This document shows, one piece after another, positions 53,682 through 58,576 of a DNA stretch of 64,000 nucleotides. Where the stretch lies: assembly GCA_024637195.1 (NCBI GenBank), contig JAGXFN010000015.1:1-64000 (forward strand), in the 5' to 3' direction. The first letter of the stretch is position 1; every line of letters begins with the position of its first letter. Position numbers and translations under genes: made by a program. This DNA comes from Arcobacter sp. (lineage in GTDB: Bacteria > Campylobacterota > Campylobacteria > Campylobacterales > Sulfurimonadaceae). The notes beneath the pieces were generated by a model. That model saw only the letters and a list, made by a program, of their open reading frames with translations. It was not told the origin of the DNA and ran no database searches.

Positions 53682-55265
53682 ATGTCAAAGCCAAAAATAG
53701 TCGTTTGTGACCATATCCATGAAGCCGGTCTTGAAATGCTTAAAAACGATGATCAGGTAGAGTATGTCTTTGCTGCTGATGTTGACAAGAGTGCACTTTT
53801 AGATATTATTGCGACAGCAGACGTCGCCATTACACGCAGTTCAACGGATGTTGATGAGAAGTTTATTAACGCGGCAAAACAGATGAAAGCTATTGTCCGT
53901 GCAGGCGTTGGTGTGGACAATGTTGATATAGACGGATGTTCAAAAGAGGGCATCATCGTTATGAACGTGCCGACTGCAAATACGATTGCCGCGGTAGAGC
54001 TGACGATGACGCACATGCTCTCTTGTATGCGGATGTTTCCATACTCCCATGACCATCTAAAAAACCAGCGAGTCTGGAAACGTGAAAAATGGTATGGTTA
54101 TGAGATGAAGGGCAAGCGCCTCGGTATCATCGGTTTTGGTAATATCGGAAGCCGTGTCGGTATCCGTGCTAAGGCCTTCGAGATGGACGTTGTGGCTTAT
54201 GATCCTTATATCTCCTCTTCAAAAGCGACTGATCTGGGCATGAAATATACGAGCAATTTTAACGATATTCTCTCTTGCGACATCATTACGATTCATACAC
54301 CGAAGAACGAAGAAACCCTTAATATGATCGACGAAGCGGAAATCGCCAAGATGAAAGATGGTGTTGTGCTGATCAACTGCGCACGCGGCGGTCTCTACAA
54401 TGAAGAGGCACTTTACAATAACTTGAAATCTCGAAAGATCCGTTTTGCGGGCATTGATGTCTTTAATAAAGAGCCGGCAACAGATCATCCGCTTTTAGAG
54501 CTTGATAATATCATCGTTTCGCCTCACCTGGGCGCAAACACCTTTGAGTCGCAATACAATATCGGTGTCCAGGCTGCCGAACAGGCGCTAAACGCGGCCA
54601 AAGGTATCGAATTTAAGAATGCCTTTAACCTGCCGATAGACGAGAGCAAGATCCCTGCCTTTGTCAAACCATTCTTGGAGCTGACCCAAAAGACAGCCTT
54701 CTTGGCAGCGCAGATGAACAAGGCGCCGATCAAGTCGATCAAGATAAGCGCGCAGGGTGATATCGCTCAGTACCTTAAATCGATGATGACCTTCGCAACT
54801 GTCGGTGCCTTGACAGAATCTGTAGGCGACAATATCAATTATGTCAATGCAGAGTTCGTGGCGCAAGACCGCGGCATCAGCTTGGATTTCAAAGAAGAGG
54901 CAAATACAAGCATCTACAAGAACAAGATCAGAATCAAGCTGACGACAGAAAAAGATGTGATCTCGATCTCTTCGACGATCTTTGAAGAAAATGTCCAGCG
55001 TATCGTAGAGATCAACGGGTTTGATCTTGATATCGAGCCAAAAGGCAATCTTATCATCTTTAAAAACACGGATGTCCCGGGGGTCATCGGTCATGTCGGT
55101 ACTACATTGGCCAAGCACAATGTCAATATCGCTGATTTCCGTTTGGGCAGAAGTGACAGCGAAGCACTTGCTGTCATTGTCGTTGACTCCAAGGTCTCCA
55201 AAGAGACACTCAAAGAGCTTTCTGAGCTAAAAGCCTGCATCAGCGTAGACTACGCGCGTATATAA
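53682..55265 (+). CDS. serA: D-3-phosphoglycerate dehydrogenase SerA
   Basis: SerA oxidises 3-phosphoglycerate as the first step of serine synthesis. The 527-residue protein has the D-2-hydroxyacid dehydrogenase fold: RLGIIGFGNIGSRVG for NAD, NCARGGLYNEEAL with the catalytic arginine, and SPHLGANTFES with the catalytic histidine. An allosteric substrate-binding domain and a C-terminal ACT domain (from about 460, with DVPGVIGHVGTTLAKHNVNI) show the long, serine-regulated form. It is preceded by GAAAGAGGG before the ATG. A short hairpin follows. Confidence 0.96.
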   Translation: MSKPKIVVCDHIHEAGLEMLKNDDQVEYVFAADVDKSALLDIIATADVAITRSSTDVDEKFINAAKQMKAIVRAGVGVDNVDIDGCSKEGIIVMNVPTANTIAAVELTMTHMLSCMRMFPYSHDHLKNQRVWKREKWYGYEMKGKRLGIIGFGNIGSRVGIRAKAFEMDVVAYDPYISSSKATDLGMKYTSNFNDILSCDIITIHTPKNEETLNMIDEAEIAKMKDGVVLINCARGGLYNEEALYNNLKSRKIRFAGIDVFNKEPATDHPLLELDNIIVSPHLGANTFESQYNIGVQAAEQALNAAKGIEFKNAFNLPIDESKIPAFVKPFLELTQKTAFLAAQMNKAPIKSIKISAQGDIAQYLKSMMTFATVGALTESVGDNINYVNAEFVAQDRGISLDFKEEANTSIYKNKIRIKLTTEKDVISISSTIFEENVQRIVEINGFDLDIEPKGNLIIFKNTDVPGVIGHVGTTLAKHNVNIADFRLGRSDSEALAVIVVDSKVSKETLKELSELKACISVDYARI

Positions 55266-55332: not shown

Positions 55333-57234
55333 CTAGATCAGTTTCGGCTTGCCCAAGAGGCTGCCTTGAAAATATTTGATACCGATGGCCTGCAGCGCTT
55401 CTTTTATTGTTTGATCTTCAAGATTTGTGGCTATGATCTTAATATCTAAACTTTCGATCAGGATCAAAAGGGCAGGGTTGTTTTGGCCTTGGAGCATGTT
55501 ATGCAGATAGATGCTGTCGATTTTTATATATTTAGGTTTAAGCATCTGCAAATAATTAAGGTTGCTTTCTTCTTCTATGCTAAAACGATCGATTCCAAGA
55601 TTGTGTCCGTAATGACGGAGCATGGCCGCAAAGGCAAGCGCCTCTCTTAAAGAGCCGAGGAGACTAGGATTGGAGAGTTCAAAATTAAGCACTCTTTTGC
55701 CGGACAAGCCCGCTAGACGCTCTTTAAGCCACTGTATCATTCCGGGCTCTTCAATAAAACGCAGCGAGATGTTAAATGCTATCTCCCGCTCTTGCAAAGA
55801 ATTCTCTTTGAGGGCATAGTTAATCACATTCTGGTCCAGTTTGGTGTCAAGATGCATTTTATGGACCAGTGGAATAAAGTCACCTGCGGTGTGCAGGTTT
55901 TTATCTTCATCGTAAAGCCTGACATAGGCCTCGGAATGAAAGATGTCTCCATTAAGGTCATACACATCTTGCAACGCCAAAGCGATAGAGTTCTCTTTTA
56001 TTCTGTTCTCAACGATCTTTCTGTCAATGTTGTCTCTTTGCGGTTCTTGCGAGCAGACAGAGGTGATACTGTTTTTCTCGACAGAAGAGAGCTCTTTTTC
56101 GATTTTGTTTAGAAGAAGAGCAGAAGTGTCTTGTGCAGTGTAGTTCAACTGCAGAAGTTTTACAGCGCAATCGCAATCTTGAGCCGATGAAGCTTCGATG
56201 GTCATGATCGCCTTAGCCAAGATCTCATCTGAAACCTTTTCGAGATCATTGTTTTGCATGCGAGGGAAGATAACCGAGATTTTTGTCCCGTCTATGCGCG
56301 CGACTACGGCTTGTTTCTGCTCTTTTGTCTCCTGGGCAACACTCTGCGAAAGCTCTTGGATAAGCGTGTCTACATTTTCATGGCCCAAGACTCTGTTGGC
56401 TTCAACAATACCCTCGATATAAAGCGTAAGAATAGTTCCCTTGGAATCTGCTTCCTCAGAAGAGAGAAAGTCATTAAGTTTGAGCTCAAAAAAGTTGCGG
56501 TTTCCCAGCCCGGTCAGTTTGTCCTTGTAAAGAAGTCTGTGGTTCTCTCTGGCCGAATCAGCTTCTCGTGCAAAAATATCTTTGACCTTGGTGACCATCT
56601 TGTTCATCGCCAGGGTTACCTCTTTAAACTCTGTTGTAGAGGGAATATTCTTGTTAATGATAAAGTTGTTGTTGCTGACAGCTTCGGCTTGCTCTTTTAC
56701 GCGTGTGAGTGACCTGAGTAAAAATCTGAGCATAATATACAAAAGAGAAAAGGTGACCAAAGCGATCAATGCAAAACTTTTGAGTAGCTCCCGGAAGTTC
56801 TCATAAAGTTTGATATGTGCATTTTCCTGCATCGGTATTACCTTGATCGTACCGATGGGATTCCAGCCAGAAGAGACGGTTGCTGTTGCGAGGGGTGACT
56901 TGAGCGTGTACAGTGATCTGAACCAGGCAGGAATATCTGAGAGTTCGCTGGGCATCTGACGTTCATGGATAAGCTTATCGTTCGCATCAAGCAGAACGAT
57001 CTTTTGAAAATATCCGCTGTCAAAGAGGGCATTGATCATCGTAGCCATCGTGGAGAGGTCGCCCTTGGCGTTGGCAAGAGAGAGGCTCAGTGAAGAGGCA
57101 GTGTTTTGCGCATTGTTTGCCAGTTCAGCTTCTGCGTATCGTGTGGAGGATTGAAAATTCAGGGCCATGACGGCTAAGAGTATCAAGAATAAAAAAAGCG
57201 ACATTATCGTAGTGATCTGTTTAAATAGACTCAT
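55333..57234 (-). CDS. LapD-like c-di-GMP receptor with degenerate GGDEF and EAL
   Basis: The 633-residue protein has a membrane helix (about 8-26), a periplasmic LapD/MoxY-type domain with IPAWF at about 101-105 and SSGWNP at 121-126, a second helix (about 153-172), then a HAMP-like linker, a GGDEF and an EAL domain. Trp124 fits the Trp of LapD that holds the protease LapG. The GGDEF motif is replaced by D-G-T-K-I at 315-319, and the EAL motif reads E-A-Y at 435-437, so neither synthesis nor breakdown of c-di-GMP is expected. Such proteins bind c-di-GMP and pass the signal across the membrane. It overlaps the LapG-like gene upstream by 4 bases. Confidence 0.83.
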   Translation of the reverse strand: MSLFKQITTIMSLFLFLILLAVMALNFQSSTRYAEAELANNAQNTASSLSLSLANAKGDLSTMATMINALFDSGYFQKIVLLDANDKLIHERQMPSELSDIPAWFRSLYTLKSPLATATVSSGWNPIGTIKVIPMQENAHIKLYENFRELLKSFALIALVTFSLLYIMLRFLLRSLTRVKEQAEAVSNNNFIINKNIPSTTEFKEVTLAMNKMVTKVKDIFAREADSARENHRLLYKDKLTGLGNRNFFELKLNDFLSSEEADSKGTILTLYIEGIVEANRVLGHENVDTLIQELSQSVAQETKEQKQAVVARIDGTKISVIFPRMQNNDLEKVSDEILAKAIMTIEASSAQDCDCAVKLLQLNYTAQDTSALLLNKIEKELSSVEKNSITSVCSQEPQRDNIDRKIVENRIKENSIALALQDVYDLNGDIFHSEAYVRLYDEDKNLHTAGDFIPLVHKMHLDTKLDQNVINYALKENSLQEREIAFNISLRFIEEPGMIQWLKERLAGLSGKRVLNFELSNPSLLGSLREALAFAAMLRHYGHNLGIDRFSIEEESNLNYLQMLKPKYIKIDSIYLHNMLQGQNNPALLILIESLDIKIIATNLEDQTIKEALQAIGIKYFQGSLLGKPKLI

Positions 57235-57848
57235 AGTTTGTTCCTTTTAACACGTTGGTTGAGTTCTTCCCATTTTTTATGGGTGCTTTGCTGAGTGGAC
57301 GAATTTTCTATCGTATCGACGTTAAAGTTGTAGACGGGAGTGAGGTCGCTGCGATTAGAAGCAGTTTCAATATCTGCAGCGATGTTATCTAAGACCAGAG
57401 GATCGGATTGGGGTGATTCAAAATAGCTAAGAACCATATGAGGACGTTTGAAACGTTTTGAATTGACATAGGTGAAATAGAGTCGCTTCGGATCAACCCC
57501 AAGCGTTTTCAGTGCAAAATATTTTGCGATCACATAATCTTCAGAATCTCCTTTATTACGCGCTAAAAACTCCAATGGCGTTGCCCAATAATCTTCTTGC
57601 TTCCAGTTTTCTATGTCGCTGAGAAAAGGGATGGCATTGAAAAAATCATTGACCAGCTTAAGTTTGCTGCGTTCAGAGATAGGTTCGGCATTGCGAAGCA
57701 TCTTGTTGTAGGCAAGATAACGGCTTACGACGAAGCCGCCATACTTGCGTTCGGCTTTTTTCATCACTGCTTCAGAGATGCTCTGCCCATTGAAAGCAAA
57801 GGCGGGCAAACTGAAAAGAAGTAAAATCATTAATTTTAATATTGGCAT
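57231..57848 (-). CDS. LapG-like transglutaminase-fold protein with Cys-to-Ser change
   Basis: The 205-residue protein has a signal peptide (LKLMILLLFSLPAFA, cut about 18). It matches the BTLCP/LapG family by WKQEDYWATPLEFLARNKGD and the following D-Y-V-I-A-K-Y. LapG is a calcium-dependent periplasmic cysteine protease that releases surface adhesins when LapD lets it go. The catalytic cysteine in G-D-C-E-D is replaced by Ser102 (codon TCT, bases 57543-57545); His137 in RPHMVLSYF and Asp154 in LVLDNI remain at the expected spacing. Proteolysis is therefore doubtful. It lies upstream of the LapD-like gene with a 4-base overlap. The adhesin target is not in the window. Confidence 0.83.
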   Translation of the reverse strand: MPILKLMILLLFSLPAFAFNGQSISEAVMKKAERKYGGFVVSRYLAYNKMLRNAEPISERSKLKLVNDFFNAIPFLSDIENWKQEDYWATPLEFLARNKGDSEDYVIAKYFALKTLGVDPKRLYFTYVNSKRFKRPHMVLSYFESPQSDPLVLDNIAADIETASNRSDLTPVYNFNVDTIENSSTQQSTHKKWEELNQRVKRNKL

Positions 57849-57974
57849 TTTTTATTTTAGCATTTTCAAAGAATAAATCATAGGATTATTTGAAAAAGTT
57901 CTAAAACAGAGGGAAATTTTTCCTTTTTTCAAATAGATCTGAGGCTAAACCTTTCTTATTTTTTACATTTTGGA

Positions 57975-57980
57975 TAAAAT
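57975..57980 (+). promoter_or_regulatory. candidate -10 box for efp
   Basis: TAAAAT lies 29 bases before the efp ATG, one base off TATAAT. GAGGATACGCG before the ATG is the ribosome site. The gap of 161 bases also serves the divergent LapG-like gene. Confidence 0.4.
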
Positions 57981-58009
57981 TTCAAAAATGATATTTATGA
58001 GGATACGCG

Positions 58010-58576
58010 ATGGCAACCATTGGAATGGGTGATATTAAGAAAAACGTGCGTTTAGAGATCAGCGGTGTCCCGTACAAGGTTGTTGATTTTCAACACGTAA
58101 AGCCGGGAAAAGGCGCAGCCTTTGTACGCATGAAAGTAAAAAGCTTTATCAACGGAAAAGTGATCGAAAAGACGGTGCATGCCGGCGACAAGTTTGAAGT
58201 ACCCAATATTGTCTACAAGACTATGCAGTATCTATATGATGACGGCGAAATGCTTCAGTTTATGGACACAGAGACTTATGATCAGCTAGGTCTGACTTAT
58301 GAGCAGTGCGATGATGCGATGAAATGGCTAAAAGACGGAACCAATGTGGATTTGGTACTTCATAATGAGAAACCGATCTCCGTAGACGCTCCTGAGATCA
58401 TGGAGTTACTGATCACAGAAACACCTCCCAACTTCAAAGGCGATACCTCCAGCGGTTCAAAAAAACCGGCTACCTTGGAGTCCGGCGCTGTTGTTCAGGT
58501 TCCTTACCATGTTCTTGAGGGTGATTTGATAAAAGTCAACACCATAGACGGCGAATACCTCGAAAAAGTAAAATAA
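58010..58576 (+). CDS. efp: translation elongation factor P
   Basis: EF-P helps the ribosome through polyproline stretches. The 188-residue protein has the three-domain EF-P fold, with the modifiable residue Lys34 in the loop KPGKGAAFV, as in E. coli, where EpmA adds beta-lysine. The [15 protein letters not shown] block and [22 protein letters not shown] are typical. A lysine at this place, rather than arginine, suits EpmA-type modification or none. It is monocistronic. Confidence 0.96.

Follow-up and report, generated by a model that had tools for sequence, protein, structure and literature searches.

A serine-bearing LapG homologue and its LapD partner in Campylobacterales: a candidate pseudoprotease–receptor pair

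The window, i.e. the whole stretch of 64,000 nucleotides from Arcobacter sp. (Campylobacterales; contig JAGXFN010000015.1) analysed here, encodes homologues of LapD and LapG on the same strand, in reading frames that overlap by 4 bases (Table 1). LapD–LapG is a model for the control of attachment by c-di-GMP via proteolysis, in which LapG cleaves LapA-type adhesins at [T/A/P]AAG, between the alanines; arginines at this site prevent cleavage (PMC3032545, PMC13090378). The adjacent LapD-like receptor reported in the initial annotation is confirmed by the overlapping gene, and lapD adjoins lapG in all five genomes of the genus that carry this pair. In the window genome (G000), as in G001 and G003, lapG and efp are only about 150–160 bases apart, and no adhesin gene intervenes.

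Table 1. Features of the lapD–lapG locus in the window.
Feature	Position	Strand	Remarks
D-3-phosphoglycerate dehydrogenase (serA)-like	53682..55265	+	identity read from sequence; also near lapD in G004
LapD homologue, 633 aa (LapD_MoxY_N, HAMP, degenerate GGDEF, degenerate EAL)	55333..57234	-	W124 (GW motif) and D72 kept
lapG homologue (Peptidase_C93/BTLCP), 205 aa	57231..57848	-	profile and structure matches
codon 102, TCT = Ser	57543..57545	-	plus strand AGA; TGY (Cys) in 171/180 homologues
gap, 161 bp, between lapG and efp	57849..58009	.	divergent LapA-like adhesin gene, on this side of lapG in G004, absent here
elongation factor P-like (efp)	58010..58576	+	identity read from sequence; same neighbour in G001 and G003

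The lapG homologue starts with ATG, and its N-terminus resembles a signal peptide. The protein matches Pfam Peptidase_C93 (1.3e-10) as well as the NCBIfam LapG profile (8.8e-49; 165.7 bits, below the 320-bit equivalog cut-off), and aligns over the whole domain with the LapG proteins of Pseudomonas fluorescens (4u65, 7e-38) and Legionella pneumophila (4fgo, 7e-31). Its AlphaFold2 model has a mean pLDDT of 90, and the best PDB match of the model in Foldseek is P. fluorescens LapG (4u65_E, E 2.4e-17, TM 0.85 by target length), which places the window protein in the Peptidase C93/BTLCP family by both sequence and fold. It had been noted from the sequence that Ser102, within G-D-S-E-D, stands where LapG proteins have cysteine, while His137, Asp154 and the rest of the fold are kept. 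This description holds: the codon reads TCT on the coding strand, and Ser102 aligns exactly with the catalytic Cys of 4u65 and 4fgo. The three residues lie within KGDSEDYVIAK, RPHMVL and LVLDN, respectively. Because the Cys of the Cys–His–Asp triad is missing, the window protein is classed as a LapG homologue and not as a LapG cysteine protease.

Apart from the nucleophile, the window protein shares with the LapG proteins of P. fluorescens and L. pneumophila the fold, the GDxED loop, His and Asp, the signal-peptide-like start and the pairing with a lapD gene; it differs in having Ser for the nucleophile Cys and in that the adhesins linked to such pairs bear T-E-A-G or are absent. The acidic residues beside the nucleophile position (D101, E103 and D104), a putative Ca2+ site, are invariant. 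In DvhG of Desulfovibrio vulgaris, D316A/E318A, which alters the residues flanking Cys317, leaves the protein inactive (PMC13090378), as does Cys-to-Ala replacement in LapG and DvhG (PMC3032545, PMC13090378). The DvhG/DvhD system belongs to the same family, being built on a C93 protease that acts on T1SS adhesins with [T/A/P]AAG; it differs from the window pair in that DvhG has an active Cys and its receptor is a dCache/HD-GYP protein unrelated to LapD (PMC13090378). The literature searched contained no account of a LapG that lacks the catalytic Cys. Pseudoproteases in which the nucleophile has changed from Cys to Ser in an otherwise conserved fold exist among papain-like proteins, in a family, organisms and partnerships other than those of LapG.

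The partner protein carries a periplasmic domain that matches PF16448 (4.2e-29). The LapG-anchoring W124 is invariant over eight LapDs, and the LapDs of the Ser pairs retain both W124 (corresponding to W125 of P. fluorescens) and D72; alteration of W125 or D72 in P. fluorescens LapD abolishes LapG binding (PMC4359373, PMC3032553). The GGDEF domain is degenerate (RIDGTK), while the EAL domain is partly so, reading EAY, with Arg for the second Asp of DDFG and with the switch-loop Phe kept, as would be expected of a predicted c-di-GMP receptor. The LapD_MoxY periplasmic domain, HAMP, degenerate GGDEF and EAL domains, GW-loop Trp and D72 are thus shared with known LapD receptors, whereas GWxP or GWxL replaces the GWxQ of the Pseudomonas and Legionella proteins, and the Glu of EAL is kept (EAY) rather than the motif reading KVL.

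Serine at position 102 is a restricted feature. Among 180 distinct LapG homologues from the order to which the window organism belongs, the nucleophile position is occupied by Cys in 171 and by Ser in the other nine, and a class-wide search for GDSED[YF][VA] returned only two TCN-encoded and three AGY-encoded matches among 397 genomes, so the idea that Ser characterizes the LapG family as a whole was rejected. Within the genus, a marine one represented by six genomes, five genomes carry an orthologue of the Ser-LapG, and GDSED is read in all five, the other four being 89, 66, 65 and 63 % identical to the window protein. The initial annotation had proposed looking in relatives for a clade that has Ser but is otherwise conserved, and had set cysteine in all other copies of the clade as the contrary outcome; the former was found, in that every copy in the genus has Ser. 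Ser is encoded by TCT in three orthologues, by TCA in one and by AGC in G004. Going from TCN to AGY or back takes either two changes by way of a different amino acid or a re-gain, which suggests that selection acts on Ser itself. Pairwise dN/dS values among the Ser copies are about 0.07–0.24 (pairs with saturated dS excluded), and these copies evolve under purifying selection. Of the positions conserved to 85 % or more among Cys-LapGs, residues 102 and 40 (C102, A40) are the only ones at which the Ser clade of the genus differs consistently.

This conservation bears on two of the simpler explanations. A sequencing or assembly error at position 57544, raised at the outset since a single base separates TCT from TGT, is ruled out by the presence of Ser in four other independently assembled genomes and by the use of two codon classes, AGC among them. 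It is also very improbable that the pair has been inactivated and is decaying. The loss of the nucleophile, the disappearance of the adhesin from the locus in three genomes and that of the transporter from G001 and G003 would all fit such a course, but the reading frames are open in all five orthologues, lapG and lapD always occur together and Ser is never swapped for another residue. The existence of five species copies under purifying selection, with two Ser codon classes, argues strongly against decay.

The Ser pair arose within the genus. The LapG tree places the Ser clade of the genus on one side of a branch with a support of 100, beside the genus' own Cys paralogues with modest support (81; 59 in a smaller tree). 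The LapD tree gives a clearer picture: LapDs from Ser pairs form the sister group (99) of the LapDs that accompany Cys-LapG in G004 and G002, which shows that the Ser pair originated by duplication of a Cys-LapG/LapD pair inside the genus. According to the same tree, the second LapG/LapD pair of the window genome, on contig C10, has a Cys-LapG and is of another lineage. The C10 locus (L047 9751–17941) is a canonical Lap locus with Cys-LapG, LapD and a 1478-aa adhesin that combines a retention module with T-A-A-G; a LapB-type transporter is encoded a few kb downstream (G000:C10:150977–153091).

The coexistence of Ser-LapG and Cys-LapG in G000, G002 and G004 raises the possibility that the former is a decoy, which would occupy LapD or compete for the adhesin and thereby tune the active Cys-LapG of the same genome. 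The conserved LapD-binding surface would permit this, and mixed LapD–LapG pairs from two species have been found to bind (PMC4359373). Such a role is nevertheless quite unlikely: the Ser-LapG comes with a lapD gene that overlaps its own gene, the Cys-LapG of the window genome is of a different lineage, and no Cys-LapG at all was found in G001 (100 % complete) or G003 (99 %). Neither a retention-module adhesin nor a LapB-type transporter was detected in these two genomes either, and all of these absences are provisional because both are draft MAGs and the assembly of repeat-rich adhesin loci is poor in such drafts.

Two relatives reveal the adhesin of the Ser pair. Its gene lies beside lapG in divergent orientation in G004, whereas in G002 it lies on another contig and encodes a protein 66 % identical to the G004 adhesin. 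Both have T-E-A-G in place of T-A-A-G, so that Glu precedes the scissile bond; the two species are related and a single event may lie behind both, and one of the contigs has low coverage. Among adhesin N-termini from Cys-LapG genomes, T-[AGS]-[AS]-G occurs at residues 98–124 in 41 of the 43 that were scored (8 % in shuffles), and it is found in none of the five adhesins from Ser-LapG genomes (Fisher p 1.2e-5, but only about two independent events). The scoring was automatic and the script left four further loci unscored, for which the raw listing gives TAAG (L247), TTAG (L272), no site (L209) and no adhesin reading frame (L242). NF033682 adhesin matches in G001, G002 (C323) and G005 were rejected as FecR-like false positives.

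The replacement of TAAG by TEAG, together with the disappearance of the adhesin from three genomes' loci, favours a binding role over proteolysis; this substrate argument rests on the relatives, because no adhesin is seen in association with the Ser pair in the window genome. The best explanation, to which we assign a probability of about 0.6, is that the Ser-LapG and LapD constitute a conserved pseudoprotease–receptor pair that would act as a c-di-GMP-gated binding switch. Ser is fixed in the clade while the fold, His, Asp, the acidic residues and the LapD Trp are kept, and the linked adhesins bear Glu or are gone. We infer that a duplicated lapG–lapD pair of the genus was turned into such a pair and that its Ser-LapG no longer cuts LapA-type adhesins. 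At high c-di-GMP the Ser-LapG would bind the periplasmic domain of LapD, and at low c-di-GMP it would be released; the released protein may dock on an adhesin retention module and leave it uncut, or the Ser-LapG may act mainly as the protein co-ligand of LapD. LapG has been described as a co-ligand of LapD that, together with c-di-GMP, drives the receptor into a high-affinity state (PMC5231407), so that a binding-only LapG could still signal. The persistence of the pair in G001 and G003, where no transporter, retention-module adhesin or Cys-LapG was found, supports the binding switch.

Some features point the other way. His and Asp are intact in the copies of the genus, although a pure pseudoenzyme would not need them, and TEAG, in which T, A and G are retained, might be a cut site that has been re-tuned. 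Ser102 might accordingly be a working nucleophile, making the protein a serine protease in the transglutaminase/BTLCP fold (Ser102–His137–Asp154) under LapD/c-di-GMP control, with specificity for T-E-A-G. The intact triad partners and acidic neighbours, the strict retention of Ser over two codon classes and the sharing of TEAG by both visible linked adhesins are compatible with such an enzyme. However, Cys-to-Ser changes in papain- and transglutaminase-like enzymes usually abolish activity, a pseudoenzyme could equally carry Ser, the most isosteric substitute, and lapG is kept in G001 and G003 in spite of their apparent lack of adhesin and transporter. We therefore regard a serine-using protease, the main rival reading, as rather unlikely, even if sequence alone does not separate it from a binding role. 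Of the three options originally put forward for the pair, namely a binding-only switch, a serine-using enzyme and an inactivated pair, the first is thus favoured and the last has lost most of its ground.

A second group of unusual LapG homologues is consistent with the binding switch. In the Arcobacter-like G442 and G453 and in G493, from another family, GDSEDFV is combined with Tyr for His137; triad catalysis is very unlikely in these proteins because both nucleophile and base are gone, and this Ser/Tyr clade is, judged by its residues, a clearer candidate pseudoprotease than the LapG of the window. In G453 and G493 the gene is part of a complete Lap operon, which also encodes LapD, a membrane-fusion protein and an ABC transporter. 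A TAAG-like site is missing from the adhesins of the Ser/Tyr operons, or replaced by N-P-A-Q-G in the case of G493, in which no LapG other than the Ser/Tyr copy was found. As a separate clade in full Lap operons whose adhesins likewise lack the standard site, these proteins would lend support to the switch. A common origin with the Ser clade of the genus is not rejected by the LapG tree (p-AU 0.58) while it is rejected by the LapD partner tree (p-AU 5e-5), and separate origins are therefore favoured, not proven. An initial reading of the LapG tree as showing three clear origins of Ser was accordingly softened. A pair without Cys and a clade with two substitutions suggest that the receptor–ligand half of the system can persist after proteolysis is given up. 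The Ser pair thus makes it possible to test whether LapG–LapD binding signals in its own right, a possibility to which the co-ligand finding already pointed (PMC5231407).

Several further variants were encountered during the survey. Loci of the Ser/Tyr clade in other families of the order are L044 1182–1817, L045 1210–1839 and L046 1186–1830. Tandem Cys-LapG pairs occur in several genomes of genus g2 (L048–L052), and in G495 (L042 508–1859) a long-branched Ser copy lies beside a canonical Cys copy and lapD; tandem pairs were rejected as the source of the Ser copies, all being Cys except that of G495. In L161, L164, L165 and L166 (genus g2 of the same family), LapG-like proteins keep Cys and His, with the triad Asp changed to Gly (ILGN for VLDN). 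The cut-site variants TGAG and TASG are found in Cys-LapG genomes (L203, L204, L205, L208, L211, L248 and L265), and the TGAG adhesins of L203–L205 and the TASG adhesin of L248 adjoin serA, which is also the neighbour of the pair in the window.
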